A DNA stretch of 58,597 nt from Herbidospora yilanensis (GTDB lineage Bacteria; Actinomycetota; Actinomycetes; Streptosporangiales; Streptosporangiaceae): contig NZ_BBXE01000050.1 of assembly GCF_001570565.1 (NCBI RefSeq), forward strand, positions 1-58,597, read 5' to 3'. A program made the position numbers and the translations under genes. Below the pieces are notes generated by a model that did not search any database, had not been told where the DNA came from, and saw nothing but the letters and a program-made list of their open reading frames with translations. The first letter of the stretch is position 1, and every line of letters begins with the position of its first letter. Of the stretch, positions 24,371 to 29,477 are shown one piece after another.

Positions 24371-24447
24371 CGGGGTGTAGCGCAGCTTGGCAGCGCGCTT
24401 CGTTCGGGACGAAGAGGTCGTGGGTTCAAATCCCGCCACCCCGACCA
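24371..24447 (+). tRNA. tRNA-Pro (CGG)
   Basis: A complete cloverleaf. The acceptor arms are CGGGGTG (24371-24377) and CACCCCG (24437-24443). The anticodon stem is CTTCG/CGAAG with loop TTCGGGA, giving anticodon CGG for proline codon CCG. The T arm contains GGTTCAAAT. The gene encodes A plus CCA at its end. The 3' 45 bases are repeated exactly at 29433-29477, showing that this tRNA served as an integration target and that its present CCA end comes from the inserted DNA. Confidence 0.95.
24401..24445 (+). repeat. attL: 45-bp att repeat in tRNA-Pro
   Basis: These 45 bases, from the anticodon stem through the acceptor stem, are identical to 29433-29477. The bases flanking the repeat differ on both sides (T versus C before it, C versus G after it). 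Such a duplication of a tRNA 3' half marks the ends of an element inserted by a tyrosine integrase. Confidence 0.92.
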
Positions 24448-24458
24448 GGTAGTTGCAG

Positions 24459-24500
24459 ATCAAGGGCCTGATCGCTGGAGACAGCGGTCAGGCCCTTGAT
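24459..24500 (+). terminator. Terminator after tRNA-Pro (element side)
   Basis: A 19-bp stem with one T-G wobble and a GAGA loop follows the tRNA by 11 bases and is trailed by TGTTT. It is a classical factor-independent terminator contributed by the inserted element. Confidence 0.85.
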
Positions 24501-24921
24501 TGTTTAACCGCCATATGACTGTCGGTCTGAACGCTGCCAGGGGGCACTGGCGGGTTCAAACGAGTTCACCTGGGTACCTTGATCAAGACAGCCTGGCCCC
24601 GAACCTTGATGGTCGTTCAAACTGATGGCGCAGTAACTGAATCGAAGAGACAGCCACGGCGCCCTTCAACGTGCCTCATCGTCAGAACGGCCGGCGAATC
24701 CCGCCCGCAGCGAAGCACTTTCAGGTCTTGCTCGAGCAACTAGGCTGAGAGTAATACTAGTGCCCGCGCAGCAGAGCAGGTCTGGCCCCGACCGGCCCTG
24801 CCCCACTCCATCCGCCCTCAGCGCATCGAGCCCGGATTCTGGAAGTGCGTAAGACGCCTCCGTGGGACCGCCGAGCACGCGCCGACTAACCTTGATGGTC
24901 GGCGGCTATCGAAAAGTACGG
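24501..24921. other. Non-coding left end of the element
   Basis: About 420 bp between the tRNA terminator and the stop codon of the 734-aa gene. Short open frames exist on both strands, but none has a convincing start, composition or recognisable sequence. I see no gene here. Confidence 0.5.
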
Positions 24922-27126
24922 CTAATCCTGCTCCCCCTCCTCGTCCTCCGGCCCACCGGACCTATTACGCTGAACGAACTCGAGCACGTCGAAGGCGCTC
25001 TGCTGGAGGTCGAGCCACTCCTCTGGCGAGCCAAGAAGAGGTGGGAACGAAACCCTACTGCCCAATTCTTCAAGAGTCTCCAACGAACGCTTCGCGTAGC
25101 TCAGCCAGTCGTGCAGGCGCTTGCGCTCTTCAACGATGAGCTGTCCCGTGGACATCTCCGTTGGGACGAAGACCGTTGTGGAATCTGTGGTGCTGTCGGC
25201 GGCTTCATCATCGGTGCCGCTGCTGCCAGAAGGGCGGCTCTCCTGCGGTGGCTTGGCCCATGCGGTCATCCTTCGAGCGCGTTCAGGGTCGGAGGCGAAG
25301 ACAACATCCCATGTTGTAAGCGCGACCTCTCTTTCGTCCTCCCGAAGGATCCGGTCAGGCGCCTCGAGATCGACGGCCACGTGCACATAGGCATCATCCC
25401 CAGTGGCAGCGTCACGCAGGCCCATCTGGCGCGCACTGCTTGCGTTGCGGGGGAGCAGATCATGACGAAAGCGCTGTGCCGCGTGCGCCAGTATCCACAG
25501 GCCTAGTTCGTTGTCCTTGCGAGCCAGCCCAGCGATGACGGTCGACACATCCGCGCGGAATGGGACCTTTCCAGGAGCAGGCGTGACAGCTACAGCGGAG
25601 CCGACGTTCCGGGTGAGTAACTTGTCAGCTATCAGTGCGACGCCCCCTGCCACCACTAGTGTGCAGCGCGCATTCACGTCACCAGCGAGTGCTGGCTCGA
25701 CCAGACTGAGAAAGTCCGCTGTTGGTACAGGCACCCAGCCGTCAGCTAGGACATCTTCACATAGCACTCCGCCATTGCTCCAAGCATTGCGAGCAGGCTT
25801 CATCGCCGAGCTCTTAGCCGCTCTCCAGGGTAGGTCGATGACAGGGCCAAGCAGGCCGGCGTACCCCTTGGTGGACATACGGCGCTCGTTCTTGATCTCC
25901 TTTGCTCTGGCTTTCAGCTGCTCATGGAACTCAGGACGAGTTAAGGTGTGGAGCAGGCAAGTCGCCCGCCATAGCGGTGTACCCGGGATCCTCTCATCAC
26001 CATAGACCCGCGGTGTGGCAGCCTCATTTGTACGCCCGATGGCGAGGGAATAGATGTCCCGAAGTTGCTCCTGGTCTCCCAGGGCAGAACGACGGCTCTG
26101 CGCGAAGAGCTTCAGTGCACGGGTGACGACTTCGAGGTTTTGAGCCGAGTCGTCCCACGGCTTGAACTCAACGTGAACTGAAGCGAGGATCGAACGCACT
26201 GCGTCGTCAAACACGTCTTCGGGAGCGAGCGCTCCGCTCGTGTGAGCTTCTACTCCTATAGTGAGGTGGACGGGCATCAGATACGTCTGGGCGATCTGAG
26301 CCATCCTGAGGGAGAGGCCCCCACCTTGGGACTCTCTATGGTGCTCCTGCCTGAGCCGTTCACGATAGGCGGCCCTGCTGCGGTTCATCCGGTCTGAACG
26401 TGACGTCCCTAAGGATGTGCCCGACTCACTGAAAAGGACCTCCACGGCGAGATCGGCCGCATCAGTTGGTGTTGCGGACGGACCCGCGAGAACCTTCCAA
26501 GCGCTGGCGAGCCTGGTGATCCCATCCCGTGTAGCGATTACGTGGAGAGATTCCGAACCGTCCTCGAATTCGATCAACACGGGGTGCGCTATCAGCGCTC
26601 GGGTGACGCGACGCGAGAGAATCGATTCCTCGTAGGAGTTAAGGTGCAGCGTGACAGAGATCGTCTGCCACACGTGCTGCTGAAAATGTGCGAGATCGCG
26701 GTAGCGGTACCTGATGACCGCCTGTGGCTTGCCATCCTTAGCTACCCCGAAGACCTGCGGGTCGGGAACATCAAGAGCTTCCTGACCCGTCCTCGGTTGA
26801 ATACCTGGGAAGAGCTCGGTCATCCACATACGTGAATGCACCGACCGGAGCGTCGCGCCGTCGACATGTTCCTCCAACAGCAGCCCCGCGCCTTGGGCCT
26901 GCTCTAGCTGGAGGGCGACGACATCCGGGCGCACACAGGCACGTGCTACGGCTTCCCAAGACTGCTCGGAGACCGAGACAAGTCCATGTCCGACCGCAGC
27001 CTGCAGCATCCGTGCGTTGGCCTCGGTGCTGGGCGCCGGAGGCAGTTCCCCTAAGAGGGAGGAGATGACAATTTTCTCGCGCCCCCATGTGATCTCTGCT
27101 GGCTTGCCAGCATCGGCCGTCGCCAT
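24922..27126 (-). CDS. Unrecognised 734-aa protein, element cargo
   Basis: A large soluble protein that I cannot place in a family. Residues about 135-215 contain alternating strands and helices ending in HVIATRDGITRLASAWKVL; the phrase RDGITR resembles, loosely, the DGxxR motif of ParB/sulfiredoxin-like domains (weak). Residues about 290-480 are helical. The C-terminal 110 residues comprise a Ser/Thr/Asp linker, a helix (VEERKRLHDWLSYAKRSLE) and an acidic tail (GGPEDEEGEQD). There is no signal peptide or membrane helix. The ATG at 27126 follows GGTGGAGA at good spacing. It lies 112 bp downstream of the DUF3800 gene on the same strand, with a hairpin between them. A role in host defence is possible but unproven. 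Confidence 0.75.
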   Translation of the reverse strand: MATADAGKPAEITWGREKIVISSLLGELPPAPSTEANARMLQAAVGHGLVSVSEQSWEAVARACVRPDVVALQLEQAQGAGLLLEEHVDGATLRSVHSRMWMTELFPGIQPRTGQEALDVPDPQVFGVAKDGKPQAVIRYRYRDLAHFQQHVWQTISVTLHLNSYEESILSRRVTRALIAHPVLIEFEDGSESLHVIATRDGITRLASAWKVLAGPSATPTDAADLAVEVLFSESGTSLGTSRSDRMNRSRAAYRERLRQEHHRESQGGGLSLRMAQIAQTYLMPVHLTIGVEAHTSGALAPEDVFDDAVRSILASVHVEFKPWDDSAQNLEVVTRALKLFAQSRRSALGDQEQLRDIYSLAIGRTNEAATPRVYGDERIPGTPLWRATCLLHTLTRPEFHEQLKARAKEIKNERRMSTKGYAGLLGPVIDLPWRAAKSSAMKPARNAWSNGGVLCEDVLADGWVPVPTADFLSLVEPALAGDVNARCTLVVAGGVALIADKLLTRNVGSAVAVTPAPGKVPFRADVSTVIAGLARKDNELGLWILAHAAQRFRHDLLPRNASSARQMGLRDAATGDDAYVHVAVDLEAPDRILREDEREVALTTWDVVFASDPERARRMTAWAKPPQESRPSGSSGTDDEAADSTTDSTTVFVPTEMSTGQLIVEERKRLHDWLSYAKRSLETLEELGSRVSFPPLLGSPEEWLDLQQSAFDVLEFVQRNRSGGPEDEEGEQD

Positions 27127-27202
27127 ACTATCTCCACCTTTCGCCAGGAATATGGAAGACTGAAGCTGCGGTCTTGGCCCGGTTTCGGTCCAGGTCCTGC
27201 CC

Positions 27203-27234
27203 GGTTGGGCCCGGCCGCAAGGTCGGGCCCAACC
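27203..27234 (-). terminator. Hairpin between the two cargo genes
   Basis: A perfect 11-bp stem (GGTTGGGCCCG with its complement) and a 10-nt loop sit five bases past the DUF3800 stop and 77 bases before the 734-aa start. It could end most DUF3800 transcripts or act as an attenuator setting the ratio of the two proteins. There is no T-tract in the minus direction. Confidence 0.5.
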
Positions 27235-27238
27235 CTTC

Positions 27239-27931
27239 TTAGAGGGCTGTAGGTCCTTGCGCTTGCGGAAACGACTGCTTGAACCAGTCCCACATAAAAG
27301 ACCGGTTTCGATTGACTGCGAGGCTCTGGTGGGCCGTGTAGGCGACGAGGTCTGCGGCCTGTAACAGGCCGCATTGCGCCGCCGGAAGGAAGAGGGGTTT
27401 TTCCTCGATTCTGCAGTTCACTGCCGACAGGTAGTGGTGCGCCCTCCGGAACGACGGGTCGGTCCCGTCCCCATCGATGAGGACCTCTGCCCTTTGGTCA
27501 CTCTCGGCAAGATCGCGATTAAGTTCCGTAATCATGGCCAGATAGAGCTCGGGCCTGTCCGTTTTGTGCAGCAAAGTACGTCTATAAGCGACACGGATGC
27601 AGATACCAGGCATATCGGCAACTACCTGGAGGCCGCGCCAGACTACGTTCCGTAGGTACTGTCGATGCCTCTCCCGACTGCGACCGTACTCGTTATAGGA
27701 GTGCAAGTGTAAACCGCGTCCGCCGATCAATTTGACGGCATGCAGAGGAACATGTGCTGGAATGAGACCCTCACAAGCGATTTCCTCCCGAAAGCGGGCC
27801 CAGCGTATGTGTGCCTCGGGTATGAAGCGATTTTCGAGATCCAGTGCAGCGAAGATCATTAAGGCTCGGCTGTCCCCGGAGTCGTCGACATAGAGTGTCC
27901 GGTCGCACGCGTTTCGATCATGTTTGCTCAT
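27239..27931 (-). CDS. DUF3800 protein, element cargo
   Basis: A 230-residue protein with the three DUF3800 hallmarks: YVDDSGD near the N-terminus, a central acidic IDGDGTDP, and LLQAADLVAYTAHQ near the C-terminus. DUF3800 proteins are predicted to have an RNase H-like fold with acidic catalytic residues and are frequent on mobile and defence islands; no activity is established for this one. The start MSKHDRNACDRT at 27931 is preferred because CGGAG lies about seven bases before it; the frame is open 40 codons further upstream without similarity. It is the promoter-proximal gene of the cargo pair. Confidence 0.82.
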   Translation of the reverse strand: MSKHDRNACDRTLYVDDSGDSRALMIFAALDLENRFIPEAHIRWARFREEIACEGLIPAHVPLHAVKLIGGRGLHLHSYNEYGRSRERHRQYLRNVVWRGLQVVADMPGICIRVAYRRTLLHKTDRPELYLAMITELNRDLAESDQRAEVLIDGDGTDPSFRRAHHYLSAVNCRIEEKPLFLPAAQCGLLQAADLVAYTAHQSLAVNRNRSFMWDWFKQSFPQAQGPTAL

Positions 27932-28639: not shown

Positions 28640-29282
28640 CCTTGACCCGCAGCTCGATCAGTTCTCCCCACCTCAGGCCGGTTTCGATCGCCGTCTACAC
28701 GAGCAGTTGGGAGTCGGCATTGGGAAGCGCCCGGTAGAGCACGTCGAACTGCTCTGGCGTGATGATCGCGCGAGGCTACCTCGGTACGGTGGGCGTCTTC
28801 ACCCCGCGGCCAGGGATGCAAGTACGTCACTGGTCGTTGAGAGCGGTCGTGAAAATCGCGCTCAGCAGGACCTTGGCGTACTTGATGGTCGCTGGACTGA
28901 CACCGTTCTTCTTCATGCGCGCGACCCAGGCGCGGACGTGCTCGGGAAGGATATCGATCATCCGCATCGTGCCGAACTCGGGAATCAGATGCCGGTGGAC
29001 CGTGTAGGTGTAGCTCTGCCGTGTAGTGGCCTCGATTTCATGGTTTGGCAGCCAGGTGTCCAAACACGTATCGCTCGAAGGTCTGCCGACCCCGCCGTGG
29101 GTCGCCCACTCGCCCCTGCGCGACCGGACTCTCGGCGTCCAGCCATGCCCTGTCAGCCTCTTCCTTGCTGGAGAACGTCCGGCGGACTTCTCCATCTCCT
29201 TGAAGTCCATCTAGTCGACCGCGTACCGGGGCTTGCCGTCCCTGCCGACCCGCTTCCGGGAGTATCCCAACCTGTCGATCAC
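28640..29282 (-). pseudogene. Tyrosine integrase, degraded
   Basis: Reading the minus strand in pieces recovers a typical actinobacterial integrase. A GTG start at 29282 behind AAGGAG gives IDRLGYSRKRVGRDGKPRY (AP2-like arm-binding domain). After one stop and a frameshift comes SSKEEADRAW; another shift gives the core-binding domain (TTRQSYTYTVHRHLIPEFG, LPEHVRAWVARMKKNG); then ITPEQFDVLYRAL and GLRWGELIELRVK with the first catalytic Arg. At least four in-frame stops and two frameshifts interrupt it. Everything after RVK, including the His-x-x-Arg box and the nucleophilic Tyr, is missing. The enzyme cannot work, which freezes the element. Confidence 0.87.
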
Positions 29283-29432: not shown

Positions 29433-29477
29433 CGTTCGGGACGAAGAGGTCGTGGGTTCAAATCCCGCCACCCCGAC
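29433..29477 (+). repeat. attR: 45-bp copy of tRNA-Pro 3' half
   Basis: Identical to 24401-24445. The bases that follow (GG rather than CA) show that the native chromosomal tRNA gene did not encode CCA. It is not a functional tRNA because the 5' half is absent. Confidence 0.92.

Follow-up and report, generated by a model that had tools for sequence, protein, structure and literature searches.

A maintained DUF3800-P734 gene pair with a conserved intergenic element on a decayed tRNA-Pro island of Herbidospora yilanensis

A stretch of 58,597 nucleotides (nt) from Herbidospora yilanensis (contig NZ_BBXE01000050.1; hereafter the window) carries two adjacent genes within an island at a tRNA-Pro gene. 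They encode a DUF3800 protein, predicted to be an RNase H-like nuclease, and a protein of 734 amino acids (aa), designated P734. Directly supported is a mobile unit of two genes that has been maintained, one member being nuclease-like, with a conserved element ahead of the second gene. Both genes are intact and under purifying selection, their linkage recurs in other genomes, and the element lies at a narrow distance from the start of P734. Tentatively, we read both genes and the intervening stretch as one functional unit, a mobile nuclease-P734 module whose role would most likely be defence, and we place nearly as much belief as doubt in this reading. The features concerned are as follows.

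27239..27931, minus strand: DUF3800 protein, 230 aa, predicted RNase H-like nuclease (PF12686; alignment of 14 relatives)
27149..27239, minus strand: two-hairpin element (alignment, covariance model, spacing)
27221-27234 and 27203-27216, minus strand: arms of element helix 1
27197-27190 and 27172-27168, minus strand: helix-2 region of the element, with conserved GGACCTGG and ACCGC respectively
27162-27151, minus strand: tail of the element, conserved CAGTCTTCCATA
27132..27138, minus strand: ribosome-binding site GGTGGAG of P734, read from the sequence and partly complementary to the conserved CTTCC of the intergenic element
24922..27126, minus strand: P734, 734 aa, of an actinobacterial family without library match, with invariant D201-G202-x-x-R205 (list of open reading frames, family alignment)

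Results

Recurrence and maintenance of the gene pair

The DUF3800 gene starts from ATG at 27931, is preceded by a ribosome-binding site GGAG read from the sequence, and exceeds the gathering cut-off of PF12686 (34.4 bits against 21; E 4.3e-8). In the alignment of 14 relatives, the acidic motifs VDDSGD, IDGDGT and LLQAAD are kept in the window protein; we take them to be parts of a putative active site. An RNase H-like fold is predicted for DUF3800 in those parts of two reports that were available (PMC10910872, PMC12669027). Both frames are thus as described in the initial annotation, namely intact, adjacent and on the same strand, with plausible ribosome-binding sites.

Members of the P734 family were found in 7 of 297 genomes of the bacterial family (own genome included; one of these, G106, is a 25-residue match), in 8 of 394 genomes of the class (own included), in 33 of 343 genomes of the genus of G429, in 10 loci of named genomes and on two plasmids. 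No relative was found in phage records or viral contigs, and a phage origin of the module was rejected on this ground. Forty-three non-duplicate members, that is, the window and 42 others, were retained, all from actinobacteria. L076 (the L014 locus), L077 (the same as L013) and L002 (the same as L008) were dropped before counting; L098, L099, L100 and L102 were dropped as split or partial; and the weak matches G731, G756, G783, G830 and G968, together with G106, were not taken in. Genes in the fetched loci were called by a simple script and not by an annotation pipeline. A tree of 42 rows was made, with L103 left out; its root is not known, and the long branches L018 and L106 are uncertain in it. 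Twenty-five members including the window form one starred clade (the close clade), and the 18 other members are distant.

DUF3800 lies directly upstream of P734, on the same strand, in 14 of the 25 close-clade loci (window included). As judged by shared flanking genes, the 25 loci represent at least six chromosomal contexts, the remaining loci being unassigned, and three of these contexts sit at tRNA-Pro, tRNA-Arg or tRNA-Ser:

window, L017, L079 and L088: at tRNA-Pro
L080 and L085: near tRNA-Arg
L094 and L095: near tRNA-Ser
L016, L082, L083 and L086: shared flanking genes
L010, L012 and L013: shared flanking genes
L009, L014 and L087: shared flanking genes

Recurrence of the pair at unrelated sites had been named initially as an observation that would support a system, and the genome search bore this out, with DUF3800 and P734 as neighbours in several chromosomal contexts. 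The converse, that homologues of P734 without DUF3800 in most genomes would speak against it, is literally what was found across the family, where DUF3800 accompanies 14 of 43 members; it does not hold in the close clade, with 14 of 25.

When a profile of the 14 DUF3800 members was run against the 742 genes predicted in the fetched loci, with duplicates counted, two further matches were obtained at E of 1e-3 or below besides two duplicates. One, of 43 bits, is a remnant located in the 5' extension of the P734 open reading frame (ORF) of L082, and the other is L092_9 with 17.7 bits. A fusion of DUF3800 with P734 in L082 and L083, suspected from the length of their ORFs, was rejected, as these ORFs are over-extended. 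A protein of about 112 aa is present upstream of P734 in 10 of the 25 close-clade loci, eight of them without recognised DUF3800; L015 and L080 carry both, and L082 keeps the DUF3800 remnant. The protein is conserved (MDFTxIxxAVExDxGxKRxSMRF...; L080:6700-7038, L086:11373-11714 and eight other loci), and the two members scanned gave no significant Pfam match. A catalytically dead DUF3800 in this 112-aa branch is only suggestive: L079/L081 align with P 0.0017 and a probability of 15%, L016 and L086 do not.

Selection on the two genes was estimated from the ratio of nonsynonymous to synonymous substitution rates (dN/dS). Between the window and S. carneum, which has the closest relative of the pair, the ratio was 0.097 for P734 and 0.215 for DUF3800, values that are rough because synonymous divergence (dS) is high (1.0 and 1.4). 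Three other pairs gave 0.12-0.32 for P734 and 0.11-0.42 for DUF3800. Relative-rate counts against S. carneum with four outgroups showed no surplus of substitutions on the side of the window copies (chi-square 1.4 or lower; upstream-extended ORFs were used for DUF3800 in some loci). Low dN/dS together with the lack of a rate excess indicates that the window pair is not visibly decaying. Both genes are under purifying selection, and the earlier proposal that they are kept by selection agrees with these values (0.10 and 0.22, not near 1). As relatives of both genes adjoin in other genomes and the ratios are low, the observation goes beyond chance.

P734 and its invariant motif

P734 gave no significant match in Pfam (best E 0.12), PHROGs, PADLOC or NCBIfam, nor among PDB sequences (best E 0.3 and 0.83), and 16 aligned relatives gave none in Pfam. 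The protein thus belongs to a family not matched in the libraries searched, and no family had been recognised from the sequence alone either. D201, G202 and R205 are invariant across the 17 aligned members. The initial annotation had seen in this DGxxR motif a weak echo of ParB-like domains. The P734 profile was compared by HHalign with ParB (17 of 24 loci), DndB (11 of 17) and GmrSD_N (14 of 17, from 26), six DndB and three GmrSD loci without usable protein being left out. The probabilities were 0.1-3.5%, and the Pfam scan of the 17 members returned no ParB-, DndB- or GmrSD_N-like match. Since profile comparison gives no support, homology of P734 to these three families was rejected; the motif is invariant, yet the ParB likeness was not upheld.

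A conserved element precedes P734

The intergenic element was missed in the initial annotation. A stretch of about 90 nt upstream of P734 is common to the window, L008, L010, L011, L012 and L013. The host of L011 is S. longwoodensis DSM 41677. A covariance model of these six copies (R1) added L078, L084 and L087, in each case between DUF3800 and P734, so that 9 of the 25 close-clade loci carry the element. Matches of R1 above 50 bits were obtained in 1 of 394 genomes of the class (its own), in 4 of 343 and in 1 of 90, each directly upstream of P734. Matches of 26-37 bits occurred in other genomes, and the six of these from the class search had no DUF3800 or P734 nearby in loci of 3 kb. A loose pattern search for the element yielded noise only, and the helix-2 pattern had no exact copy in viral contigs. 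As the element is present in both halves of a subclade of 21 rows and was not found in the 10-row branch with the 112-aa protein, it was probably lost there.

In helix 1, four pairs are changed on both sides (n=9). When the two helices are taken together, 92.1% of cells pair, compared with 89.9% in shuffles; the both-side changes number 4 against 1.3, with 9 of 500 shuffles equally high, and the covariation score is above that of all 500. These shuffles leave the kinship of the element copies in place. Folded singly, the copies exceed shuffles in stability (z -1.4 to -4.2).

The distance from the element to the P734 start is 21-31 nt (24.1 +/- 2.8 nt, n=9; start codons for spacing were chosen by hand), and that from the DUF3800 stop to the element is 0-81 nt (23.3 +/- 26.3 nt, n=9). 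GGACCTGG occurs in all three phases relative to the P734 start, with an in-frame stop in L078, and the element is therefore not a coding extension; the coding alternative was rejected by reading phase. The simplest reading is that the element is probably a regulatory RNA leader of P734. We infer both that it acts as RNA and how it might act.

At gathering thresholds, Rfam gave no match for six element copies. Relaxed scans of five copies returned no DUF3800 family, and the four copies besides that of the window matched nothing. The window copy gave an opposite-strand match to BjrC68 (29.4 bits; gathering score 39) and a CRISPR-repeat match, both sub-threshold. A known RNA was rejected, the best Rfam match being on the opposite strand and below its gathering score. 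The closely related loci L009 and L014 share a hairpin-rich-looking region upstream of DUF3800 (L009:4840-5270, L014:4840-5270).

Another nuclease-like partner in distant members

In 9 of the 18 distant members, a small ORF overlaps the P734 stop by 1-11 nt. Y61, Y72, G74, R83, H87 and E115 are invariant in all nine, which were chosen partly by this Y-Y-G-R-H-E motif itself. The residues follow the order of the catalytic residues of GIY-YIG nucleases. PF01541 was matched by six of the nine at E of 5 or below, the best at 0.002, and on these features the ORFs are probable GIY-YIG-type nucleases. No ORF of this kind was noticed beside P734 in the window. On the 42-row tree the GIY-YIG label requires one change (five labels together 5, minimum 4; 11 rows without label were not counted), so that one exchange event would explain it. 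DUF3800 and the GIY-YIG-like nucleases are probably unrelated types, and a literature search found no paper joining the two. At L019:4388-4750 and L102:7486-7836, an ORF of about 120 aa with a hydrophobic-looking stretch overlaps the P734 stop where the GIY-YIG-like ORF would sit.

The island at tRNA-Pro(CGG)

The sole tRNA gene of the window, tRNA-Pro(CGG) at 24371-24447 (ARAGORN), and an exact copy of the last 45 nt of its 3' part bound an island of about 5 kb.

24401..24445, plus strand: left island end, 3' part of tRNA-Pro(CGG) (ARAGORN tRNA call, repeat D1)
28827..29210, minus strand: integrase remnant, SAM-like N-terminal part, without catalytic domain (Pfam, comparison with relatives)
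29433..29477, plus strand: right island end, 45-nt identical direct repeat of the tRNA 3' end (repeat D1)

Repeat D1 spans 73 nt overall at 88% identity, its first 45 nt being identical, and G+C falls from about 0.70 outside to 0.58-0.64 within the island. A tRNA gene with a direct repeat of its 3' end, as expected of a tRNA-targeted integrative element, is present; of the integrase only a remnant is left, an ORF of 127 aa with N-terminal and central integrase domains only (Pfam). Integrase ORFs of L079, L088 and L106 (504-608 aa) align to it over 150-174 residues, the alignments stopping well short of their C-terminal part. The integrase ORF of L094, the fourth relative compared, did not match. 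No further mobility genes were noticed among the window ORFs listed, the search for them being limited to Pfam scans. The island is a decayed tRNA-targeted integrative element; the initial annotation was right both in placing the pair on a tRNA-Pro island and in regarding its mobility functions as decayed.

All seven genomes of the genus, counting the one that holds the window, contain the right flank of the island. It is split in the six others, where its first 56-84 nt and its remainder map about 1.6 to 18 kb apart on a single contig, which we read as other insertions at the same site, that is, a hot spot. tRNA-Pro(CGG) stands beside P734-family genes in the window, L017, L079 and L088, which have flanking genes in common. 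In L106 it is close to a distant member, and these loci appear to share the site as a hot spot. An exact 14-nt repeat, AACCTTGATGGTCG, is present at 24602-24615 and 24888-24901, within the island and downstream of P734. A strong 19-nt inverted repeat at 24459-24500, directly after tRNA-Pro, is perhaps the terminator of the tRNA.

Discussion

If the two genes and the element form one module, P734 would be its constant component, and its constancy suggests a recognition or control subunit. The nuclease would be the exchangeable effector, of DUF3800 type in the window clade and of GIY-YIG type in the distant branches. The RNA leader, placed just before the P734 ribosome-binding site, would allow a module protein or another ligand to regulate translation of P734. 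Targets could be the foreign nucleic acid of phages or competing mobile elements, which P734 would sense or hold and the nuclease would cut. The nuclease activities and the defence role are our own interpretation of predicted families and of context, namely integrative islands and carriage on plasmids. The nuclease-plus-partner unit of the initial annotation stays the best reading, but DUF3800 is not constant in it, as 9 of 18 distant members have a GIY-YIG-like ORF instead. The data suggest a defence-like system without a matching known counterpart.

Two other loci add to this context. At L088, at the same tRNA-Pro site, a C5 DNA methyltransferase (PF00145, E 1e-48) followed by a 277-aa protein is encoded upstream of P734 (5456-7530); two smaller ORFs, that of the 277-aa protein and one small predicted ORF, lie between methyltransferase and P734. 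The 277-aa protein had no Pfam or PADLOC match and is possibly an unrecognised restriction enzyme. On a Tsukamurella plasmid (L018:2004-7241), two genes beside P734 match PADLOC models, mad8 (E 5.4e-7) and WGR_XIII / HEAT-ARM_XIII (E 5.9e-22, 6.4e-15).

A number of observations weigh against the module as proposed. DUF3800 was not recognised in 8 of 25 close-clade loci, which have the 112-aa protein upstream instead, and in L088, L094 and L095 no partner of P734 was recognised. Sixteen of the 25 close-clade loci yielded no copy of the element, among them L009 and L014, where the intact pair lies 45-48 nt apart. Helix 2 shows zero double changes in nine copies; further pair types are no more frequent than in shuffles (407 of 500 as high), and RNAalifold gave no covariation bonus for the first six copies (term +0.11). 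In the best folds, helix 2 is complete in five of nine copies and present by its inner part in L087; the modelled helix is absent from those of the window (minimum free energy), L013 and L078. The tail region pairs with the P734 ribosome-binding site in the best folds of two of nine copies, window and L008. The printed PF01541 scores of the overlapping ORFs, 15.8, 16.8 and 17.8 bits, do not reach the gathering cut-off of 22.6; the sole PDB match of their profile up to E 10 was UvrC, in register, at E 1.7, and no such ORF was found in the other 9 of 18 distant members. PADLOC-DB 2.0.0 had no match for the window P734 or DUF3800, nor PADLOC for the L018 P734, the L080 DUF3800 and three of the nine GIY-YIG-like ORFs. 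Lastly, dN/dS of DUF3800 is above that of P734 in two of four pairs.

The element itself could be read in two other ways. Its inverted repeats could be DNA operators, bound as duplex by P734 or another protein that represses its own gene. The inverted repeat of helix 1 is almost perfect, most copies have CCTGG and CCAGG half sites in the helix-2 region, helix 2 is missing from the best RNA fold of the window, and the position between the genes would suit an operator. Against this, helix 1 varies in sequence yet stays complementary, which is not the behaviour of a sequence-specific operator; in helix 2, A faces A where the dyad symmetry of DNA would call for T; and the element keeps within a narrow distance of the start codon; we regard an operator as a doubtful though serious alternative. 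Equally, the element could be a trans-acting RNA in a working complex, bound or trimmed by DUF3800 and serving as scaffold or guide for P734. This is in line with the location of every match above 50 bits between DUF3800 and P734, and with the helix-2 region, which keeps its sequence and an A opposite A in 9 of 9 copies, like a possible protein-binding site. Two reports (PMC10910872, PMC12669027), moreover, link DUF3800 genes to Cas12a2 and type VI-F loci as well as to putative non-coding RNAs. A leader, however, accounts better for a distance that is narrow towards the P734 start and free towards DUF3800; the pair occurs without the element in L009 and L014, and no variable guide-like stretch was noticed in the alignment. 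We consider a trans-acting RNA unlikely. A bolder form of the module, which we consider rather improbable, would make P734 the target-recognising constant subunit of a new defence class with interchangeable nucleases; the two-hairpin RNA would belong to a DUF3800-RNA-P734 ribonucleoprotein and would later have been replaced by the 112-aa protein in the sister branch as DUF3800 degenerated.

Other explanations concern the purpose of the pair. It could be addiction or toxin-antitoxin cargo of a mobile element and not a defence system, given that it is retained on a dead island, that relatives are found on plasmids and near tRNA genes or integrase ORFs, and that a nuclease is combined with a possibly regulated partner. 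P734 is, however, far above the typical size of an antitoxin, tandem RNA repeats as in type III systems are lacking, and the nuclease is exchanged or lost while P734 remains, which makes such cargo quite improbable. P734 could also be a maintenance protein of the element, acting in ParB-like partition, replication or transfer, with the nuclease as incidental cargo. The DGxxR motif and the several members that adjoin integrase ORFs or sit on plasmids would fit; but profile comparison shows no likeness to ParB or DndB, the window keeps no further maintenance gene, and P734 has immediate oriented linkage with two different nuclease types, so that maintenance appears very unlikely. The tentative preference remains with a defence-like module of P734 and an exchangeable nuclease.

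In the available parts of the literature (PMC10910872, PMC12669027), DUF3800 is a predicted nuclease family linked to CRISPR loci and putative RNA motifs, with its function unsettled. The present loci offer one recurrent partner, an element at narrow distance and a sister branch with another nuclease, and the role of DUF3800 becomes testable here with two genes. Sequence searches of Pfam, NCBIfam, PHROGs, PADLOC and PDB having brought no significant match for P734, solving its structure would open up a family.

Among known systems, the DUF3800 proteins of CRISPR types V-A2 and VI-F belong, as far as the available parts of their descriptions go, to the same Pfam family as the window protein, with the same predicted RNase H-like fold. 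Unlike at the CRISPR loci, the partner here is P734. No Cas gene or CRISPR array was noticed in the island, in which no dedicated search beyond repeats was made. A structured element beside a DUF3800 gene also recalls the Rfam DUF3800 motifs (DUF3800-I, DUF3800-IX and others), but the present one matches no DUF3800 covariance model. These Rfam motifs reportedly come from a survey of 224 RNAs. The nine distant-member ORFs resemble GIY-YIG nucleases (PF01541) in keeping the catalytic residues in order, and differ from family members in printed scores below the curated cut-off. With GmrSD_N (PF03235), the weak HHalign match lands exactly on the P734 motif (probability 1.5-3.5%, P 0.033-0.012). 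Unlike in GmrSD, P734 has no nuclease domain match and the genes are separate; the two are likened solely in how they would work, a protein with a DGxxR-type motif being coupled to a nuclease.

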